From Streptomyces sp. Je 1-369 (GTDB lineage Bacteria; Actinomycetota; Actinomycetes; Streptomycetales; Streptomycetaceae), in NCBI RefSeq assembly GCF_026810505.1, contig NZ_CP101750.1, positions 5,327,501 through 5,391,500 of the forward strand: a stretch of DNA of 64,000 nt, in the 5' to 3' direction. Both the position numbers and the translations under genes were made by a program. The notes under the pieces were generated by a model that was given only the letters and a program-made list of their open reading frames with translations, ran no database searches and was not told the origin of the DNA. Below, piece after piece: positions 48,809 to 64,000 of this stretch. Every line of letters starts with the position of its first letter. Within the stretch, counting starts at the first letter, position 1.

Positions 48809-48975
48809 GGTTGATGTTCGATATGCCCGATACATTTTCGTTACTTTACGAGGGTGAGTGCGGGACGCGAGCTGCTGTGGCGGAGTGTGATCGTCCGCGG
48901 GCAGGGCGTGACGCGAGGCGGTGTGACCGGAACCCGCAGCGGGTTGTCAGTGGGGCCGCCTAGACTCGGGAGGCG

Positions 48976-55155: not shown

Positions 55156-56919
55156 TCATGGCGGCGGGAGTTCGTCGCGGATGGCCGCGCGCAGGCGCAG
55201 CGTGGTCACGAGGCGTTGGAACGCCTCCGACCAGTAGCCGCCCGCACCGGGAGACGCGTTCTCCGGTTCGTCGGGTATCGCGGTGAGCGCCTCCAGACGG
55301 ACCGCCTCCGACGGGTCGAGGCAGCGTTCCGCAAGGCCCATCACTCCGCTGAAACTCCAGGGGTAACTTCCCGCGTCACGAGCGATGTTCAGGGAGTCCA
55401 CCACCGCGCGGCCCAGCGGTTCGGCCCAGGGGACGGCGCAGACACCGAGCAGTTGGAACGCCTCCGACAGGCCGTGCGCCGCGATGAAACCGGCCACCCA
55501 GTCGGCCCGTTCGGCGGCGGGCAGCGAGGCCAGGAGCTTGGCCCGCTCGGCGAGCGACACGGCGCCGGGGCCCGCGGCGTCGGGCGAGGCGGGGGTGCCG
55601 AGCAGCGCCCGGGACCAGGCGACGTCCCGCTGGCGCACCGCCGCGCGGCACCAGGCGGCGTGCAGCTCGCTCCGCCAGTCGTCGGCCACCGGGAGCGCCA
55701 CGATCTCCGTCGGCGTGCGGTTGCCGAGCCGGGGCTGCCAGGTGGCGAGCGGGGCCGCTTCCACCAGCTGACCCAGCCACCAGGAGCGTTCACCGCGGCC
55801 GGTGGGGGGCTTCGGGGTGACGCCGTCCCGTTCCATGCCCGCGTCGCACTCGTGCGGTGCCTCCACCGTGAGGGTCGGTGTGTCGGAGGTGTGGTCGACG
55901 GCCACGCAGGACGCCGCGCGGGTCGACATCCTGCCTGCCAGCGCGGATTCGGGCAGGGCGGACAGCAGCTCCGCCGCGGTGGCACGGACGTTGCGGCTGC
56001 GGTCGGTGAGTGCCCGCTCCAGGAACGGCTCGTCCGCGGGGGACAGGCCGGTGCGCAGGGAGTCGAGGAACATCAGGCGGTCCTCCGCCCGCTCCGTCGA
56101 CCACGTGGACACGAGCAGGTCCAGGGCCGTTCCGGCGTGGTGTGCCCGCAGCGTGGTGAGGAGGGCGACGCGCTCGGCGAAGAGGCCCTCCTCCCAGAGG
56201 CGTTGCACCTGCGGGGCGTCGTCGGCGGACGGGAGGGATACGCCGCCTCCCGGGGTGGCCCGGAGTGCGAACTTCCAGTCCGGGTTCAGACGGGCCAGCC
56301 AGAGCGCTCTGGGGCCCGCGAAGGTGAGGGCCTGGGGGCGCAGGTCCGTGCGGCCGCGTGCCGCGTTCAGGAGCGCGGGCAGCAGCTCCGGCGGGGCGCC
56401 ATACCCCCGCACGTTGGCCAGGGCCAGCCACTGGGGCAGGAGCTCCATCAGGTCGGGGGCCGCGCCCCTGCGGCCGCCGCCGCCCGTACCGGGCTGATCG
56501 GTGAGCAGCGTCGCGAGCCTGCGCCGGGCCGCCGGGGGCACGGGTGGCCTGGGGTCGTCCGCCGCGGGCTCGGGCAGTGCGGCTGCCGGTGCGGCGCGCA
56601 GCCCCGCCCTGCGGCGCACCGTCTGCAGTGCCGCCGCGTCCAGGAGGGCGGTCGGCGCCTCCTTGCCGGGGGTGTGCGCGATGGCCGGCAACGCGCGGCG
56701 CTCGGTGCCCAGCAGGGCCGCCGTGACGAGGTCGTCCCAGGAGGGGGCGGTGGGGACGGTGGGGACGGTGGACGTGGAGGGAGTGGGGTTGGTGGGGATA
56801 GTGGGGTTAGTAGGGCTTGTGGGTCCGGTGGGTCCGGTGGGTTCAGTGGGGTGGGTGGGGTCGGTGGGGGTAGCGTTCGTGGCGGGCGGGGTGGGTTCCT
56901 GGTGTGCGTTCTTCAGCAC
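55156..56919 (-). CDS. DUF5691-like protein, partner of the SWIM protein
   Basis: 587 residues from GTG 56919, which overlaps the stop codon of the SWIM gene, so the two are translationally coupled. An N-terminal Pro-Thr tripeptide repeat (about 10-55, xPT units) precedes a predicted all-helical, HEAT-like body: WDDLVTAALLGTERRALP, SRNVRATAAELLSALPESALAGRM, RDVAWSRALLGTP. DUF5691 is named from memory of proteins in this context. It occurs with SWIM, MoxR and VWA genes across bacteria; its role is unknown. Confidence 0.8.
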   Translation of the reverse strand: MLKNAHQEPTPPATNATPTDPTHPTEPTGPTGPTSPTNPTIPTNPTPSTSTVPTVPTAPSWDDLVTAALLGTERRALPAIAHTPGKEAPTALLDAAALQTVRRRAGLRAAPAAALPEPAADDPRPPVPPAARRRLATLLTDQPGTGGGGRRGAAPDLMELLPQWLALANVRGYGAPPELLPALLNAARGRTDLRPQALTFAGPRALWLARLNPDWKFALRATPGGGVSLPSADDAPQVQRLWEEGLFAERVALLTTLRAHHAGTALDLLVSTWSTERAEDRLMFLDSLRTGLSPADEPFLERALTDRSRNVRATAAELLSALPESALAGRMSTRAASCVAVDHTSDTPTLTVEAPHECDAGMERDGVTPKPPTGRGERSWWLGQLVEAAPLATWQPRLGNRTPTEIVALPVADDWRSELHAAWCRAAVRQRDVAWSRALLGTPASPDAAGPGAVSLAERAKLLASLPAAERADWVAGFIAAHGLSEAFQLLGVCAVPWAEPLGRAVVDSLNIARDAGSYPWSFSGVMGLAERCLDPSEAVRLEALTAIPDEPENASPGAGGYWSEAFQRLVTTLRLRAAIRDELPPP

Positions 56920-58328
56920 AGCGACACCGTCTCTCCTGAGTCCTTCGGCCAGGCCGCCAGTGGGGTGAAGCCTCGGTGGCCGCACTCGCCGAACACCGTC
57001 AGCGGGGCGCCTCCGGAGAGGGCGATCAGACGCCACAGGCCCGGCCGGGATGTGGCGGAAGGGGCGAGGGGGAGGGCTGATTCGGTTGTGGCGTCCGCCA
57101 GTTGCCAGGAGCCCTGCAAGCCCTGCAAGCCCTGCAAGCCCTGCGTGTCCCGGGTGCCCCGAGCGTCCCGCACGTCCTGCGTGCGGGCCGGTATCACTTC
57201 GGCGAGCGTCACGGGCCAGGACTCCAGCCAGGGGTCGTCGCGGAGTGCCGCGCCGTAACGGGCAACGGCCTCTTCAGGACGTACGCCCGGTGGCCGCTGC
57301 GCGGTGGGCGTCGGCGCCGCGAACTGTTCGCCCAGCTCCACCCGCAGCTGCCCCGCCCCCGGATACCCCGTCACCTCGGCGTCGAGTGCGAGGCCCACTG
57401 GCAGGGCGAGCGCGGGTGCGCGGCCCGCCGCCCCGTACGAGAGAAGGAGCGCGGTGCGGCCGGACTCCGTGCCGTAGAGCCATATGCGGCGTGTGGTGAG
57501 TCTGCTGTCCGCCGTGTCGTACTGGGCGAGGACCACCCAGTGGTCCCGTACAGGTGGGCCCTCCGGCTGTGAGGGGAGGCCGACGCGGGAGCGGACCGTG
57601 GCCGCAAGGCCCTCCGGCAGCCGGTCGCGGTGGAGCCAGCCCTGGTCGAGGAGGTGGAGCAGTGCGCATTCCTCCAGGAGGCGCACGGGCCAGCCGGGGC
57701 CGGAGGACGGTATGGCCCCCAACTCTCGTACACGCGCGGCCAGTCCTGGGGCCTGTGCGTCGACCATGCGGGCCGCCGTTTCCTCCCACAGGCCGTACCC
57801 CATCTGCTCCGCCGATGCCGTGCCGCCGCAGAGCAGGTCGGACAGGCGCTGCTCCAGCTCCGTCGCCCCCGCGGTGATGCGCTCGGCCCGCTTCTCCGCT
57901 CTTCTGCGCGCCGCCTCGGGATCGGCCGAGGCGGCGGGCGCGGCGGCTGAACTCTGCTTGCTGTCCGCTCGTTTGCGGCGTGCCGCCAGCCACTCCGCGG
58001 CCCAGGCCGGCGGTTCGCCGCCCTCCGGCACGGTGCCGTCCGCCCCCGCCCACACCAGCAACAGCCCCAACGCGTGCTTGCACGGGAACTTACGGCTCGG
58101 ACAGCTGCACTTGTACGCCGGGCCCGCGCTGTCCGCGATGTCGACAATCGTCTGATACGGCTTGCTGCCACTGCCCTTGCACAGTCCCCACATCGCCCCC
58201 TCGCCCGAACTGCCCGCCTCTGACCATGGTCCTGCGACGCCGAGTTTGCTGCCCGCCTTGCGTGTCGAGGCATCAGGAGCCAGTGCCAGCACCTGATCCG
58301 CCGTCCAGCGCACCCCCTGCTGAGTCAT
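56913..58328 (-). CDS. SWIM zinc-finger protein (YehQ-like)
   Basis: 471 residues from ATG 58328 (MTQQGVRWTADQ); an upstream ATG at 58376 would add 16 residues. The SWIM finger is C74-x-C76-x6-C83-x-H85 in YKCSCPSRKFPCKHALGLLL, predicted to bind nucleic acid or protein. A helical region and a C-terminal domain with QGL repeats (57113-57145) follow. It is divergent from the MoxR gene with 153 bases between starts. In E. coli the SWIM gene yehQ accompanies yehL (MoxR), yehM and yehP (VWA). Confidence 0.88.
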   Translation of the reverse strand: MTQQGVRWTADQVLALAPDASTRKAGSKLGVAGPWSEAGSSGEGAMWGLCKGSGSKPYQTIVDIADSAGPAYKCSCPSRKFPCKHALGLLLVWAGADGTVPEGGEPPAWAAEWLAARRKRADSKQSSAAAPAASADPEAARRRAEKRAERITAGATELEQRLSDLLCGGTASAEQMGYGLWEETAARMVDAQAPGLAARVRELGAIPSSGPGWPVRLLEECALLHLLDQGWLHRDRLPEGLAATVRSRVGLPSQPEGPPVRDHWVVLAQYDTADSRLTTRRIWLYGTESGRTALLLSYGAAGRAPALALPVGLALDAEVTGYPGAGQLRVELGEQFAAPTPTAQRPPGVRPEEAVARYGAALRDDPWLESWPVTLAEVIPARTQDVRDARGTRDTQGLQGLQGLQGSWQLADATTESALPLAPSATSRPGLWRLIALSGGAPLTVFGECGHRGFTPLAAWPKDSGETVSLC

Positions 58329-58481
58329 GTCTCGAAGGTAGGTGCCACCACTGACAATCGGTTCGAGCTCGGGCATTCATGCAGGTCAAGGCCGTGCGGA
58401 GGGCGATTGTCAGTGGCGTGGTGCACGGTGGACACATCGCCGGGCCAGATGTGCCCGGACGAGCTGGAGGGGGATCGCGCC
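58329..58481. promoter_or_regulatory. Divergent promoter region of the MoxR/SWIM locus
   Basis: 153 bases separate the oppositely oriented SWIM and MoxR genes and must hold both promoters. No consensus box is clear enough to mark. Confidence 0.5.
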
Positions 58482-59636
58482 ATGACCGTTTCCGTCGACT
58501 CGACAACGTCCGCGACCGTGAATTCGGCGGTGCCCGCGTCCGGTTCCGCCGATGGTGCGGAAGCGCTCCGCCCGCATGCCGAGGACGCCTTCGCCGCCGA
58601 ACTCGCCGCGCTGGCCGCCCAGGACGACCGGCCGCGGCCGCAGCGGTGGAAGCTCTCGCCGTGGGCCGTCGCCACCTACCTGCTCGGCGGCACTCTGCCC
58701 GACGGCACGGTGATCACGCCGAAGTACGTGGGACCGCGCCGCATTGTCGAGGTCGCCGTCACCACCCTCGCCACCGACCGCGCCCTGCTGCTGCTCGGCG
58801 TGCCGGGCACCGCCAAGACCTGGGTGTCCGAGCACCTCGCGGCCGCGGTCAGCGGTGACTCGACCCTGCTCGTGCAGGGCACGGCGGGCACTCCCGAGGA
58901 AGCGATCCGGTACGGCTGGAACTACGCCCAGCTGCTCGCCCACGGCCCCAGCCGCGACGCCCTTGTGCCCAGCCCCGTCATGCGCGCGATGGCCGAGGGC
59001 ATGACGGCGCGCGTCGAGGAGCTGACCCGCATCCCAGCCGACGTGCAGGACACGCTGATCACGATCCTGTCGGAGAAGACACTGCCCATCCCGGAGCTGG
59101 GGCAGGAGGTGCAGGCCGTGCGTGGCTTCAGCCTCATCGCGACGGCCAACGACCGCGACCGCGGCGTCAACGACCTGTCGAGCGCGTTGCGCCGCCGCTT
59201 CAACACGGTCGTTCTGCCGCTGCCGGAGAGCGCCGAGGCCGAGGTCGACATCGTCTCGCGCCGCGTCGACCAGATCGGCCGCTCCCTCGACCTGCCCGCG
59301 GGCCCCGAGGGCATCGACGAGATACGCCGTGTCGTCACCGTCTTCCGTGAATTGCGCGATGGCGTCACGGCGGACGGGCGTACGAAGCTGAAGTCGCCCA
59401 GCGGCACGCTGTCCACGGCCGAGGCGATCTCCGTCGTCACCAGCGGCCTCGCGCTGGCAGCCCACTTCGGAGACGGCGTGCTGCGCTCCGGCGATGTGGC
59501 GGCCGGCATCCTCGGCGCTGTCGTCCGCGATCCAGCGGCGGACCGTGTGATCTGGCAGGAGTACCTGGAGACGGTCGTGCGCGAGCGCGACGGCTGGAAG
59601 GACTTCTACCGCGCGTGCCGAGAGGTGAGCGCATGA
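58482..59636 (+). CDS. MoxR-type AAA+ ATPase (YehL-like)
   Basis: 384 residues from ATG 58482 with GGAGGGGG upstream. AAA+ elements: Walker A GVPGTAKT (106-113), a Walker B/pre-sensor I region (ADVQDTLITILSEKTLPIPELG), sensor 1 LIATAND, and the arginine-finger region LRRRFNTVVLPLP. MoxR ATPases work with VWA-domain proteins as chaperones that insert cofactors or assemble complexes. The sequence and the context with DUF5682, VWA and SWIM place it in the YehL branch. It heads the + strand operon. Confidence 0.92.
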   Translation: MTVSVDSTTSATVNSAVPASGSADGAEALRPHAEDAFAAELAALAAQDDRPRPQRWKLSPWAVATYLLGGTLPDGTVITPKYVGPRRIVEVAVTTLATDRALLLLGVPGTAKTWVSEHLAAAVSGDSTLLVQGTAGTPEEAIRYGWNYAQLLAHGPSRDALVPSPVMRAMAEGMTARVEELTRIPADVQDTLITILSEKTLPIPELGQEVQAVRGFSLIATANDRDRGVNDLSSALRRRFNTVVLPLPESAEAEVDIVSRRVDQIGRSLDLPAGPEGIDEIRRVVTVFRELRDGVTADGRTKLKSPSGTLSTAEAISVVTSGLALAAHFGDGVLRSGDVAAGILGAVVRDPAADRVIWQEYLETVVRERDGWKDFYRACREVSA

Positions 59637-59637
59637 C

Positions 59638-62217
59638 GTGGGCGGCGGGAGTGACGGGGGCGAGGGGGGGGTGACGGGAGTGACGGGAGTGACCGGGGCG
59701 CGTGTGCGGGAGACGCTGTTGCTCGGAGTGCGGCACCACGGTCCTGGCTCGGCGCGTGCGGTGCGGGCCGCGCTCGACGCGGGGCGGCCGGAAGTCGTCC
59801 TCGTCGAGGGGCCGCCGGAGGCCGACGCGCTCGTGGATCTTGCCGCCGACGAGGGGATGCGGCCACCGGTCGCGCTGCTCGCGCATGTGGTGGACGAGCC
59901 GGGGCGCTCGGCGTTCTGGCCGCTCGCCGACTTCTCCCCGGAGTGGGTCGCGATCCAGTGGGCCCTTGGGCACGGGGTGCCTGTGCGGTTCATCGATCTC
60001 CCGGCAGCGCACTCACTAGCCGTCCGCACGGAGGACGAAGGAGAGGGAGAGGGACGGGGGCAGGGACAGGGGCAGGGAGAAGGAGGAGGAGAGGGCGCGG
60101 GTGGGGGTGACGGGGGAGACATGGGGGGCGTGCGGGTTGATCCACTCGGCGTGCTCACCGAGACCGCCGGGTACGACGACCCCGAGCGCTGGTGGGAGGA
60201 CGTCGTCGAGCACCGTGGGACGGCCGGCGACCCGTTCGCGCCGTTCGAGGCGGTGGCCGAGGCGATGGAAGCCCTGCGCGAGGCCTACGGAGACGGGGGG
60301 CACGCCCGCGACCTGGTGCGCGAGGCGCACATGCGGTTCCAGGTGAGGGCCGCGCAGAAGGAGTTCGGTCCTGAGCGGGTCGCCGTGGTCTGTGGAGCCT
60401 GGCATGTTCCCGCGCTGCGGCGGAAGACCACCGTGGCCGCGGACCGGGCCCTCCTCAAGGGGTTGCCCAAGGTGAAGGCCGAGATGACGTGGGTGCCGTG
60501 GACCCACCGCAGGCTCTCGCGCGCGAGTGGGTACGGCGCGGGAATCGTCTCCCCAGGTTGGTACGCCCATTTGTTCGGTGCGCCCGACCGGCCCGTCGAG
60601 CGCTGGATGACGAAGGTCGCCCGGCTGCTGCGCGACGAGGACAGGCTCGTGTCGTCCGCGCACGTCATCGAAGCGGTGCGGCTCGCCGAGACGCTGGCCG
60701 CGATGCGGGGGCGGCCGCTGGCCGGGCTCACCGAGACGGCCGATGCAGTGCGGGCGGTGATGTGCGAGGGCTCCGACGTACCGCTCGCGCTCGTGCACGA
60801 CAAGCTCGTCGTCGGGGACGTGCTGGGGGAGGTGCCCGATGCGGCGCCCGCGGTTCCGCTGCAGCGTGACCTCACGAAGCTGCAGCGCAGGCTTCGGCTG
60901 AAACCGGAGGCGTCGGAGCGGGAGTTGGAGCTCGACCTCCGTAAGGAGACGGACGCCGCGCGCAGCAGGCTGTTGCACCGGCTGCGGCTCCTCGGCGTGG
61001 GCTGGGGCGAGCCGACGGCGTCCCGGGGGAGCACGGGGACGTTTCGGGAGACCTGGCGGCTGCGGTGGGAGCCGGAGCTCGCCGTGCGGGTCGCCGAGGC
61101 GGGGGTGTGGGGGACGACGGTCCTGGGTGCGGCCACGGGCAAGGCGTCCTCCGACGCGGTCGACGCGGGGGCGCTGTCCGACGTCACCGTGCTCGCCGAG
61201 CGGTGCCTGCTGGCGGAGTTGCCGGACGCGTTGCCCGTGGTGATGCGGGTCCTTGTGGACCGGGCGGCGCTGGACACGGACGTCGGACACCTCGCGCAGG
61301 CCCTTCCCGCGCTGGTGCGGTCACTCCGGTACGGGGATGTCAGGGGGACCGGTACGGAGGCCCTCGGCGAGGTTGCCCTCGGGCTCGCCGAGCGGATCTT
61401 CGTCGGGTTGCCGCCCGCGTGCGCGGGGCTGGACGCGGACGCGGCTCTGGAGATGCGACGGCATGTCGATGCGGTGCATCAGGCGGTGGCACTGCTCGGG
61501 GAGTTCGGTGCGGGGTCCGGTACGGGTTTCGGTTCGTATTCCGGTACGGGGGGCGCGCAGGGGGTTCGCGCTCGGTGGCACTCCGTACTGCGGACGCTCG
61601 CCGAGCGGGAGTCCGTCGCCGGAGTCGTGCGGGGGCGGTGCGTGCGGCTGCTCCTGGACGGCGGGGAACTGGGGGACGAGGACGTCGCCCGCCTCATGGG
61701 GCTCGCGCTGTCCCGGGGCAGTGCGCCGGCCGAAGGGGCCGCCTGGATCGAGGGGTTCGTCGGGGGCGGATCCGGAGGCGGGATGCTGCTCGTGCACGAC
61801 GAGCGGCTGCTCGGGCTGGTCGACGACTGGCTGTGCGGGGTGTCGGACGCCGCCTTCATCGACGTACTGCCGTTGCTGCGACGCACGTTCTCGGCGTACG
61901 AGGCGGGGGTGCGGCGGACGTTGGGCGAGCTGGTGCGGCGGGGGCCGACGGGGCGGTCGGCCGGTGCTGTCGGGGGGGCCGGAGCCGGGCAGGGCGCGGG
62001 GATGCCCGGTTTCGGCGCCCGGCTCGACCCCACGCGCGCGGACGCCGTGGTGCCGATCGTCCACCTGCTCCTGGGCCTGCCGATGGACGCCGGGGTTGGG
62101 GCAGGGGCAGGGGCGGGGTCTGGGGCTGGGGTTGTGCTGCGGGCGGGTGCGGATGTGGGTGCGGAGGTGCGGGCGGTGGGGGCCGTCGGCGACGACTGCG
62201 TGGGGGTGGACGGGTGA
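59638..62217 (+). CDS. DUF5682-like protein (YehM-like)
   Basis: 859 residues from GTG 59638. The conserved body starts with VRETLLLGVRHHGPGSARAV and contains VEGPPEADALVDL, WVAIQWALGHGVPVRFIDLP, VCGAWHVPAL and AGIVSPGWYAHLFG, all typical of this uncharacterised family. The ATGA that overlaps the MoxR stop is out of frame, and a run of eight G (59664-59671) lies between it and the body. A Glu-Gly-Gln repeat (60027-60125) and a Gly/Ala-rich tail (after about 62090) are low-complexity insertions. Function unknown; it is always linked to MoxR and VWA partners. Confidence 0.85.
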   Translation: MGGGSDGGEGGVTGVTGVTGARVRETLLLGVRHHGPGSARAVRAALDAGRPEVVLVEGPPEADALVDLAADEGMRPPVALLAHVVDEPGRSAFWPLADFSPEWVAIQWALGHGVPVRFIDLPAAHSLAVRTEDEGEGEGRGQGQGQGEGGGEGAGGGDGGDMGGVRVDPLGVLTETAGYDDPERWWEDVVEHRGTAGDPFAPFEAVAEAMEALREAYGDGGHARDLVREAHMRFQVRAAQKEFGPERVAVVCGAWHVPALRRKTTVAADRALLKGLPKVKAEMTWVPWTHRRLSRASGYGAGIVSPGWYAHLFGAPDRPVERWMTKVARLLRDEDRLVSSAHVIEAVRLAETLAAMRGRPLAGLTETADAVRAVMCEGSDVPLALVHDKLVVGDVLGEVPDAAPAVPLQRDLTKLQRRLRLKPEASERELELDLRKETDAARSRLLHRLRLLGVGWGEPTASRGSTGTFRETWRLRWEPELAVRVAEAGVWGTTVLGAATGKASSDAVDAGALSDVTVLAERCLLAELPDALPVVMRVLVDRAALDTDVGHLAQALPALVRSLRYGDVRGTGTEALGEVALGLAERIFVGLPPACAGLDADAALEMRRHVDAVHQAVALLGEFGAGSGTGFGSYSGTGGAQGVRARWHSVLRTLAERESVAGVVRGRCVRLLLDGGELGDEDVARLMGLALSRGSAPAEGAAWIEGFVGGGSGGGMLLVHDERLLGLVDDWLCGVSDAAFIDVLPLLRRTFSAYEAGVRRTLGELVRRGPTGRSAGAVGGAGAGQGAGMPGFGARLDPTRADAVVPIVHLLLGLPMDAGVGAGAGAGSGAGVVLRAGADVGAEVRAVGAVGDDCVGVDG

Positions 62218-62267
62218 GTCAGGGGACTCGTGCGGCGGAGATATCGGCGGCGACCGTATGCGGGTGA

Positions 62268-62945
62268 GCGGGGTGAACACGGTGGTTGGAGGGCTTGGCG
62301 CGGCGTGGGCTGGTGGGGGCGACTACGTGGGGGCGGTGGGGTGAGCGGGGTGAACACGGTGACTGGACGGTTCGGCGTGGCGAGGGCTGGCGGTGGCGAC
62401 TGCATCGGGGTGGCGGGGTGGAAGCGGTGAACGGTGCGGCTGGGGGAGTTGGTGCGGCCGTAGGCGAGACCGAGGGGGGGGGCTTGGCGGGCCGGGGGCG
62501 GGGGGGCGAGGGGCCGGGGGGGGCGGGGGCGGCCGGGGGGCGGGGGGGCGGGGGGGGGGGTGGCGCGGCCGGGGGGTGGCGGGGCGAGGGCCGGGCCGGG
62601 GGAGGGCGTGGGGCGGCCGGGGGGGGCGGGGGGTCGGGGTAGCCGGGGGGGCGGGATCGAAGGCGAGGGCCAGACCGAGGTCGAGGGCGCGGGTGCGGCC
62701 GAGGGCGGCGGGCGAGCCGGGGTGGCCGGGGGAGTTGGCGTGGTTGGGGGCGTGGTCGAAGGCGGGAGAGTCGGAGTGGCTGGGGGAGTTGGCGTGGTTG
62801 AAGGGGGGGAGCCGGAGTGGGCGGGGGAGTTGGCGTGGTCGAGGGCGGGGGAGCCGCAGTGACTGAGGGAGTTGGCGTGGTCGGAGGCGGGGGACGCGGG
62901 GGAGTCGGGGTGGTTGGGGGCGAGGTCGGAGGCCGGGGTGGTGGT
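62268..62945 (+). repeat. G-rich, repeat-laden intergenic tract
   Basis: About 680 bases with extreme G bias on the + strand and very little A or T; long G runs (up to ten) cluster at 62470-62660. Two 75-base imperfect direct repeats start at 62268 and 62342 (GAGCGGGGTGAACACGGTG). A second repeat family built on GAGTTGGCGTGG recurs at 62732, 62786, 62827 and 62869, spaced 41-54 bases. All frames read only Gly/Arg/Ala/Val-rich peptides. G-quadruplex potential on the coding strand is very high. No gene is supported. Confidence 0.85.
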
Positions 62946-64000
62946 GTGACTCGGGGTGCGGATGGCGGTGGTGAGCGGGTTCGGCGGTGGCGGCTTGTTC
63001 TGGGCGGGGAAGGTGGGGATGGCACTGGGTGTGTGCTTGGGGGGCGGGATGCGGCGATGGATGACGCCCTCGGGGCGTTGTACGGGGGCGTGAGGGAGAA
63101 GGGGGGCGAGGGGCGGCGGGAGCGGTCGGCGGGGCTCGGGGCGTCCGCGCCGTCCGTGGCGCGGTGGCTCGGGGACATCCGTACGTACTTCCCCTCGTCC
63201 GTCGTGCAGGTCATGCAGCGGGACGCCATCGACCGGCTGGGGCTGTCCACGTTGCTTCTGGAGCCCGAGATGCTGGAGGCCGTCGACGCGGACGTGCACC
63301 TGGTGGGCACGCTGCTCTCCCTCAACAAGGCCATGCCCGAGACGACCAAAGAGACCGCGCGGGCTGTCGTGCGCAAGGTCGTCGAGGACCTGGAGAAGCG
63401 CCTCGCGACGCGGACCCGCTCCGCGCTCACCGGCGCGCTCGACCGCAGCGCCCGCATCAGCAGGCCGCGCCACCACGACATCGACTGGAACCGCACGATC
63501 GCGGCCAACCTCAAGAACTACCTGCCGGAGCACCGGACGATCGTCCCCGAGCGGCTCATCGGGTACGGGCGGGCGTCCCGGTCGGTGAAGAAGGAGGTCA
63601 TCCTCTGCATCGACCAGTCCGGGTCGATGGCCGCGTCCGTCGTCTACGCCTCGGTGTTCGGGGCCGTGCTCGGTTCCATGCGGTCGCTCGACACCCGGCT
63701 CGTCGTCTTCGACACGAACGTCGTCGACCTGACCGACCAGCTCGACGACCCCGTGGACGTGCTCTTCGGCACTCAGCTGGGCGGCGGCACCGATATAAAT
63801 CGCGCCCTCGCCTACTGCCAGTCGCAGATCACCCGGCCCGCCGACACGGTCGTCGTCCTCATCAGCGACCTCTACGAGGGAGGCATCCGCGACGAGATGC
63901 TGAAGCGGGTCGCGGCGATGAAGGCGTCCGGGGTGCAGTTCGTGACGCTGCTCGCGCTCTCCGACGAGGGGACACCCGCGTACGACCGTGAGCACGCGGC
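62946..64000 (+). CDS. VWA-domain protein (YehP-like), 3' end outside window
   Basis: A reading frame of about 351 codons runs off the right edge; it is interrupted upstream by TGA at 62799. GTG 62946 (MTRGADGGGERVRRWRLVLGG) is the best start because the family's RRWRLVLGG element follows at once. A helical domain precedes the von Willebrand A domain, whose MIDAS motif DQSGS has D223, S225 and S227; GGGTDINRAL supplies the Thr and LISDLYEGG the later Asp. It is the expected metal-dependent partner of the MoxR ATPase. Confidence 0.88.
   Translation, partial: MTRGADGGGERVRRWRLVLGGEGGDGTGCVLGGRDAAMDDALGALYGGVREKGGEGRRERSAGLGASAPSVARWLGDIRTYFPSSVVQVMQRDAIDRLGLSTLLLEPEMLEAVDADVHLVGTLLSLNKAMPETTKETARAVVRKVVEDLEKRLATRTRSALTGALDRSARISRPRHHDIDWNRTIAANLKNYLPEHRTIVPERLIGYGRASRSVKKEVILCIDQSGSMAASVVYASVFGAVLGSMRSLDTRLVVFDTNVVDLTDQLDDPVDVLFGTQLGGGTDINRALAYCQSQITRPADTVVVLISDLYEGGIRDEMLKRVAAMKASGVQFVTLLALSDEGTPAYDREHA

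Follow-up and report, generated by a model that had tools for sequence, protein, structure and literature searches.

A YehL-type MoxR-VWA gene set lying behind DNA-damage-type promoter elements in Streptomyces

The window, i.e. the whole stretch of 64,000 nucleotides analysed here (Streptomyces sp. Je 1-369, contig NZ_CP101750.1), carries at its right end five genes, which code for a DUF5691 protein, a SWIM zinc-finger protein, a MoxR AAA+ ATPase, a DUF5682 protein and a VWA protein. We propose that these genes encode one ATP-driven MoxR-VWA machine of the YehL type, switched on in Streptomyces by the LexA-independent DNA-damage response, and in this reading, taken as a whole, we have moderate confidence. 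That the gene products form one machine is almost certain in our view; regulation of the gene set by DNA damage in Streptomyces is very probable, judging from its promoter elements, and an action of the machine on DNA-bound proteins is put forward as a tentative idea. The features concerned are, in window positions:

55156..57036, minus strand: DUF5691 protein (Pfam E 1.4e-174), with a weak HEAT-repeat match
56913..58328 (471 aa), the likely gene in an open frame 56913-58376, minus strand: SWIM zinc-finger gene (Pfam SWIM, E 4.7e-06)
58335..58357, minus strand: RecA-NDp element TTGTCAGTG-N8-TACCTT for SWIM-DUF5691, exact (G000:C1:5385835-5385857)
58407..58429, plus strand: RecA-NDp-like element TTGTCAGTG-N8-CACGGT for MoxR-DUF5682-VWA, one mismatch (CANNNT for TANNNT)
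58482..59636, the likely gene in an open frame 58407-59636, plus strand: MoxR AAA+ ATPase, placed by sequence in the YehL subfamily (AAA_5, E 1e-36, MoxR-type)
59638..62217, plus strand: DUF5682 protein, YehM family (Pfam E 0, 1011 bits)
59728..60405, plus strand: N-terminal part of the DUF5682 protein, TIKI/TraB/Ere-like by its invariant residues
62817..64000, running past the window end, plus strand: VWA_CoxE protein, YehP family, with MIDAS DxSxS (Pfam E 4.6e-56)

A DUF5691/SWIM pair divergent from a MoxR/DUF5682/VWA row had been described in a first-pass annotation made from the letters of the window, and the Pfam matches and open frames uphold this arrangement. The DUF5691 and SWIM open frames overlap, at the 3' end of SWIM. 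The most likely SWIM start is the ATG at 58328, 6 nt past its -10 element, and the transcript is predicted to be leaderless, probably; for MoxR the most likely start is the ATG at 58482. The true DUF5682 start may lie slightly 3' of 59638, and the opening residues of the VWA open frame are probably non-coding. The DUF5691 protein is probably a scaffold or adaptor.

The DNA-damage promoter of mycobacteria was published as tTGTCRgtg-8 nt-TannnT (PMC5656591), and PafBC works via the RecA-NDp promoter (PMC6789036), which in S. coelicolor stands before recA and before SCO6735, a gene inducible by ultraviolet light (PMC5087735). On the SWIM side, we observed TTGTCRGTG-N8-TANNNT exactly in 76 of the 81 divergent loci, at promoter distance, and on the MoxR side the core is present in 80 of the 81. 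When the intergenic regions of at most 360 bases (67 of 81) were aligned, the two appeared as an inverted pair, CCACTGACAAT...ATTGTCAGTGG, between SWIM and MoxR. In the whole genome (8.82 Mb in a single contig) the exact element occurs 30 times and its backward-reading control not once. The frame downstream of each site was taken by script as the longest one behind it, several of these exceeding the 1.5 kb taken, and 26 of the 30 were searched for families (L161, L170 and L178 were left out, and L182 is the SWIM gene itself). Fifteen of the 26 code for enzymes of DNA repair, of replication or of nucleotide metabolism, namely Ung, a RarA-like ATPase, a Hel308-like helicase, an AddB-like nuclease, UvrA, UvrB, a SCO1167-family helicase, dGTPase, DnaX, RadA, PcrA, XseA, ThyX, RecA and a DEAD helicase, some of them below curated cut-offs, the frame being cut or the relationship distant.

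In addition, many Streptomyces have a second, diverged cluster with a DUF4132 gene at its head, in which DUF5682 and VWA form one frame in the three copies examined (L104, L106 and L115). For this cluster, 20 upstream regions were picked regardless of promoters from at least 37 matches. Sixteen of the 20 have the exact element and 19 have it when one mismatch is allowed, the control giving 0 in 200 kb. The distance from the element to the beginning of the downstream DUF4132 match is 37-92 nt; in L104 this match begins 37 nt past the element. Ahead of the first gene, the element is exact in L105, L106 and L107 and has one mismatch in L104 and L115. These elements, recurring before two diverged cluster types, would fit an induction by DNA damage through PafBC.

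Several observations weigh against such a control or narrow its range. Wherever the MoxR side has the core (80 loci), its -10 hexamer reads CANNNT and never TANNNT. Eleven of the 26 downstream frames are not DNA enzymes or have no match (ribosomal S6, a sigma factor, two hydrolases, YjbR, a weak VWA match and five without match). Nine actinobacterial loci outside Streptomyces contained no RecA-NDp site within one mismatch, and the M. smegmatis PafBC motif seemed in a published motif search not to be conserved in S. venezuelae (PMC9380542). In E. coli, a LexA-like box that starts 27 nt ahead of yehF, the WGR gene, would favour damage control, but it has 13 of 20 consensus letters, the best score in its 27 kb and one that an unrelated site equals. 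A plasmid copy of the E. coli set (L118) showed no LexA-like site (best 12), but it is without its own yehF. LexA, alphaproteobacterial LexA and DdrO boxes were sought, and the rhizobial, Methylosinus, D. taeanensis and Hymenobacter operons had no LexA/DdrO-type box at their heads, scattered matches lying elsewhere in the loci. One publication states that MolR had been described as belonging to the LexA regulon, which is in favour of damage control in E. coli. According to the same publication, depletion of DdrO in D. radiodurans leads to a strong rise of a DUF4132 operon and of a WGR gene (PMC8533742). Since no such sites stand at the other actinobacterial, rhizobial, Deinococcus and Hymenobacter loci, the case for damage control is confined to the Streptomycetaceae.

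Three further observations touch on these elements. The 30 exact sites of this Streptomyces genome contrast with the published remark on S. venezuelae. An exact RecA-NDp element also stands in the window at 48944-48966, right before the pcrA/uvrD helicase gene (start 48976). Another exact site precedes an unlinked gene that matches VWA_2 weakly, below cut-off (L160:1578-2633).

The divergent order seen in the window is repeated exactly in 66 of 80 Streptomycetaceae loci and is therefore not due to chance; of the remaining 14, 13 are near a contig end and one (L097) has split frames. These loci are the best 80 of 574 confirmed stretches from a contig scan, all of them Streptomycetaceae by title; for this reason the other phyla rest on plasmid-collection records, on L120 and on one E. 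coli chromosome, which are the sources of the loci outside Actinomycetota. Of 121 Streptomyces genomes, 119 contain DUF5682, and many of these have at least two matches; the named DUF5682 proteins closest to that of the window are from Streptomyces. Among 149 actinobacterial genomes, 10 have DUF5682 and 9 have DUF5691 above cut-off, every one of the nine being within the ten; in the tenth (G120, L103) DUF4132 stands in the place of DUF5691. Two more DUF5691 matches, below cut-off, occur in actinobacterial genomes without DUF5682.

To follow the gene set further, profiles were built from seed proteins and 31 loci were scanned (L002, L003 and L098-L126); this set includes four Streptomyces core copies (L002, L108-L110) and the plasmid copy of the E. 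coli set. A linkage limited to close relatives would have spoken against the first-pass reading, and this is not what was observed: MoxR, DUF5682 and VWA are together in 31 of 31 loci, from five phyla, namely Actinomycetota, Deinococcota (L111), Bacteroidota (L112), Fusobacteriota (L119) and Pseudomonadota (L003, L113, L114, L116-L118, L121, L125 and L126), with L120 unassigned. A SWIM profile match is nearby in 23 loci, and DUF5691 is present in 16. Of the eight loci without such a SWIM match, two (L103 and L120) run into contig ends, and in L115 SWIM matches below threshold.

Two architectures were observed. Type A consists of SWIM, DUF5691, MoxR, DUF5682 and VWA, on one strand in Deinococcus, Hymenobacter, Rhizobium, Methylosinus, Methylobacterium, Nonomuraea and Nocardia and divergent in Streptomyces. 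DUF5691 had been taken for an actinobacterial addition, a view that its presence in Deinococcus, Hymenobacter and rhizobial loci (four phyla in all) does not allow. In type B, which includes E. coli yehF-yehQ, Iodobacter, Allorhizobium and Sinorhizobium plasmids and L107, WGR/DUF4132 proteins stand where type A has DUF5691. In E. coli, WGR is in YehF and DUF4132 in YehI; WGR is also found in L117 and L126, and one protein of L107 combines both. Pooling Pfam, profile and tblastn matches, 16 of the 31 loci have DUF5691 only, 12 have DUF4132 only, none has both and three have neither (L105, L119 and L120). Some partners are even joined: SWIM and DUF5691 share a single uninterrupted frame in L102, L112 and L124, as do DUF5682 and VWA in the three second-cluster copies named above. 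The joins in L112 and L115 were also seen by Pfam, with SWIM in L112 below cut-off, and the DUF5691 boundaries in L112 are blurred by a fused Hymenobacter protein taken into the DUF5691 seed set. Such joined frames may be read as direct hints of physical partnership.

Some of these loci are peculiar in other respects. On the Methylosinus plasmid, VWA is in three pieces with no listed coding sequence (L114:12220-13328) and is probably decayed. The plasmid copy L118 (NZ_CP103756.1, 104495-130771) is an E. coli chromosomal-type stretch from yehI to mlrA on an IncF plasmid, surrounded by IS26 copies and resistance genes. L105 (G023:C1:8305001-8325000) is a further diverged cluster with VWA, MoxR and a very divergent DUF5682; its unassigned first gene, 648 aa from one possible start, has a C/H-rich SWIM-like stretch.

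The kinship with E. coli yehLMPQ, which had been noticed at first reading, is confirmed. With YehL, the window MoxR shares 38% identity over 356 aa (E 4e-72), and YehM is a DUF5682 protein, YehP a VWA_CoxE protein and YehQ a SWIM protein. The window MoxR is also 72% identical to the Deinococcus MoxR, compared with 20% for RavA (E 0.11) and 26% for the best AAA proteins of its own genome (E 8e-06 for L213 and 0.001 for L211); weaker ones gave E 5 (L212) and 8 (L210, which is without Walker A and maybe misread). The forks of a MoxR tree are mostly weak. By sequence comparison, the window MoxR is a member of the YehL subfamily, one of seven named MoxR subfamilies (PMC3893208). The motifs expected of the machine are intact. 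The window MoxR has Walker A GVPGTAKT and a Walker B-like VEE; G-x-x-G-x-x-K-[TS] is present in 109 of 109 MoxR matches, and [V/F]EE replaces DE at Walker B in 99 of them, the other 10 being outside this pattern. A MoxR-type protein of the same genome has DE there. The MIDAS DxSxS was found in all 105 VWA matches longer than 700 bases, and the SWIM pattern C-x-C...C-x-H in 95 of 101.

The DUF5682 protein may be the enzymatic subunit. In 42 of 42 DUF5682 proteins the residues R32, H33, P36, A39, E57, S100, P101, E102, D120, R228, E229, M232, G253 and H256 are invariant, as was first seen in 11 diverse members; L105, a divergent paralogue with no RHxxP, and L118, a near copy of E. coli, had been excluded beforehand. 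Since its Pfam match starts only with residue 42, the first conserved motif of the window protein is missed. TIKI/TraB/Ere hydrolases have a His-Glu pair and 2His/2Glu catalytic residues (PMC6254334). The YbaP sequence shows a late G-x-x-H, and in Ere proteins a His occupies the corresponding position; E102 and E229 are both invariant, and either may be the second catalytic Glu. Among all matches, RE..M...G..H is present in 111 of 111 and RHxxP in 109.

With HHalign, the N-terminal DUF5682 profile scored 23.1 against the Ere profile and 24.0 against YbaP (own-gene and reversed controls, 13.0-19.1); with 42 sequences it scored 22.1 against Ere and 23.7 against TraB (controls, 15.9-17.2). A positive control, TraB against Ere, gave 20.9. 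The best alignments to YbaP/TraB and to the Ere profile cover the R...G..H segment. Against 70 single-sequence controls (best 21.3), the first profile placed YbaP (24.0) and the Ere-family protein L148 (29.5) above all, with L140 and L143 narrowly above, L143 on another segment. Pfam at loose E-values gave TraB in L115 (0.18) and DUF5694, presumably kin to TraB, in L125 (0.026), as hints only. Searches of Actinomycetota for the ChaN and TraB families yielded one member each.

Other results speak against a hydrolase. RHxxP is absent from the divergent L105 and from L097. With the larger DUF5682 alignment, YbaP (20.0) was equalled or exceeded by two of the 70 controls, and only L148 and L151 stood above all of them. 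Most of the 13 single Ere proteins did no better than controls with either profile, HHalign probabilities against the family profiles were below 4%, and no relevant match was found when the DUF5682 profile was compared with PDB sequences. We lowered the hydrolase claim since the signal weakened with the 70 further controls. The His...Glu...Arg...His pattern resembles that of TIKI/TraB/Ere hydrolases in order and spacing, the profile support is suggestive, and a TIKI-like fold appears a reasonably probable lead from the conserved residues. This hydrolase-like N-terminus and the DNA-damage promoters are both beyond what the first-pass annotation held.

The proposed link with DNA damage also offers a new reading of a published topA phenotype. 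SCO4804 would be the S. coelicolor DUF5682 protein, as the gene order and an 814-residue S. coelicoflavus protein (L080) suggest; the SCO numbers of its individual neighbours are those that we take to apply. A Tn5 insertion in sco4804 (815 aa) lowers TopA protein to about half, and sco4803-4805 rise on TopA depletion, sco4804 and adjacent genes eightfold (PMC8120823). Purified SCO4804 binds DNA non-specifically, and SCO4803 and SCO4805 are called hypothetical proteins. The available text does not name RecA-NDp, and in the available parts of the cited RecA-NDp/PafBC and SCO4804 literature the five genes are not named as regulon members. TopA depletion may itself raise damage signals, so that sco4803-4805 would be induced via RecA-NDp. 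It counts against our reading that assays found no interaction of SCO4804 with TopA (PMC8120823).

Based on these data, we suggest the following mechanism. The SWIM and HEAT-like proteins (DUF5691, or WGR/DUF4132 in the sister type) would recruit the machine to DNA-protein assemblies that are damaged or stalled; the MoxR ring, coupled via the VWA MIDAS domain, would pull the client protein apart; and DUF5682, with its TIKI/TraB/Ere-like N-terminus, would cleave or modify it. Taken further, the machine might dismantle proteins stuck on damaged or over-wound DNA, as p97 does with SPRTN/Wss1 in eukaryotes, with a MoxR-VWA unfoldase, DUF5682 as a TIKI-type peptidase, SWIM/HEAT or WGR/HEAT adaptors, and a damage control arisen separately in Streptomyces, in E. 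coli (LexA) and in Deinococcus (DdrO). We regard this extended version as a speculation, with perhaps a quarter of a chance.

The same genes could also encode a dedicated assembly chaperone, in which MoxR and VWA would mature or metallate one enzyme complex, DUF5682 would be an inactive helical scaffold and the damage promoter would reflect a client needed for repair. Indeed, the characterised MoxR proteins are thought to mature specific complexes (PMC3893208), and the weak profile matches of DUF5682 to hydrolases would suit a scaffold. However, no single client enzyme is a constant neighbour in the annotated locus tables, and the R/H, E, D, R/E, M and G/H residues fixed in 42 of 42 proteins exceed what a scaffold would seem to need. 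We consider this alternative unlikely, though deserving of attention.

A role in biological conflict had been suggested at first reading: damage, e.g. by phage, would trip the MoxR-VWA switch and free a toxic hydrolase, killing the cell itself. A function in conflict has been proposed for related MoxR-vWA ternary systems (PMC7159879), several copies of the set are on plasmids and one adjoins a type I restriction-modification set. Two PHROG families whose function is unknown match DUF5682 (E 7.5e-32) and VWA (E 3.1e-68), so that phage carriage is conceivable. MoxR-DUF5682-VWA is also found in L120 (MT835988.1), an unverified and unannotated 'Bacteriophage sp.' faecal scaffold, which is possibly bacterial DNA. 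Yet PADLOC gave no match for seven proteins, and a viral-contig scan on two short patterns gave 23 pattern matches, none of them confirmed as a relative. DUF5682 is nearly constant in Streptomyces, as counted above, and stands beside sucC in 70 of 71 informative loci; moreover, SCO4804 overexpression slowed growth only slightly (PMC8120823). So far the suggestion is not borne out, and we judge a conflict system improbable.

Least of all do we expect SCO4804 to be a topoisomerase regulator activating topA and gyrB, as published: the Tn5 effect on TopA and a brief rise of topA and gyrB transcripts after SCO4804 induction speak for it, but the authors saw no specific topA-promoter binding and called the effect indirect (PMC8120823), DUF5682 proteins have no DNA-binding family match in Pfam, and damage signals raised by TopA depletion may account for the induction.

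Concerning the surroundings of the proposed machine's genes, the VWA gene stops in the whole-genome sequence at window position 64136 (L002:11636), beyond the window end, and is followed by two frames that we take, from their translations, to be sucC and sucD. The 70 of 71 count for sucC refers to Streptomycetaceae loci that have 3 kb on the right side. The widened DUF5682-VWA gap of the window is occupied at 62262-62917 by G-rich tandem repeats with periods of 16 to 86; unlike in the window, DUF5682 and VWA nearly abut in L039 and L050.

A full-text literature search returned no paper on DUF5682 or DUF5691, and no YehL function was found in the searched literature, subscription papers being mostly outside both searches. 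A search by yeh gene names gave no study of these genes by title or abstract (PMC3893208 concerns RavA). The YehL relationship and the MoxR-VWA pairing were already known and are ordinary. Three points are new as far as the searched literature shows: the phylum-wide architecture, in which the HEAT-like partners can replace one another, the link of two Streptomyces cluster types to a damage promoter, and the apparent hydrolase-like signature of DUF5682. The promoter link, being present in two diverged cluster types, makes an unexplained gene family accessible to experiment, and DUF5682 becomes a possible enzymatic subunit with named residues for mutation.

Among known systems, the closest is E. 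coli yehF-yehI-yehL-yehM-yehP-yehQ, with MoxR, DUF5682, VWA_CoxE and SWIM in a row; it differs by having WGR/DUF4132 and not DUF5691, by its single strand and by a LexA-like box in place of RecA-NDp. RavA-ViaA is likewise a MoxR AAA+ protein with a VWA cofactor, and the window VWA matches the ViaA model weakly (E 1.5e-4, 21 of 500 bits), but RavA shares only the 20% identity given above, and no DUF5682, SWIM or DUF5691 was found among the RavA-ViaA neighbours examined. The MoxR-vWA ternary conflict systems (Kaur et al. 2020, PMC7159879) also combine a MoxR-vWA core with a conserved partner. Unlike them, the five proteins show no VMAP, inactive STAND, FtsH or beta-propeller above cut-off with Pfam models, and the bpMoxR score of the window proteins (23.1 of 27 bits) is below cut-off; YehL, SWIM, DUF5682, DUF4132, TraB and Tiki do not occur in the main text of that paper. 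With TIKI/TraB/Ere proteins, DUF5682 shares a His...Glu pair and a late G-x-x-H in the same order, the His-Glu spacing being 24 residues against 28 in Bcr135 by the residue numbers available from the literature; it differs by about 500 further residues attached, by its separate Pfam family and by having no significant profile match. Finally, the set resembles the RecA-NDp/PafBC regulon by the element directly before SWIM, a putative PafBC binding site, and, with a promoter of the same kind as those of recA and uvrB, its role in coping with damaged DNA can be tested.

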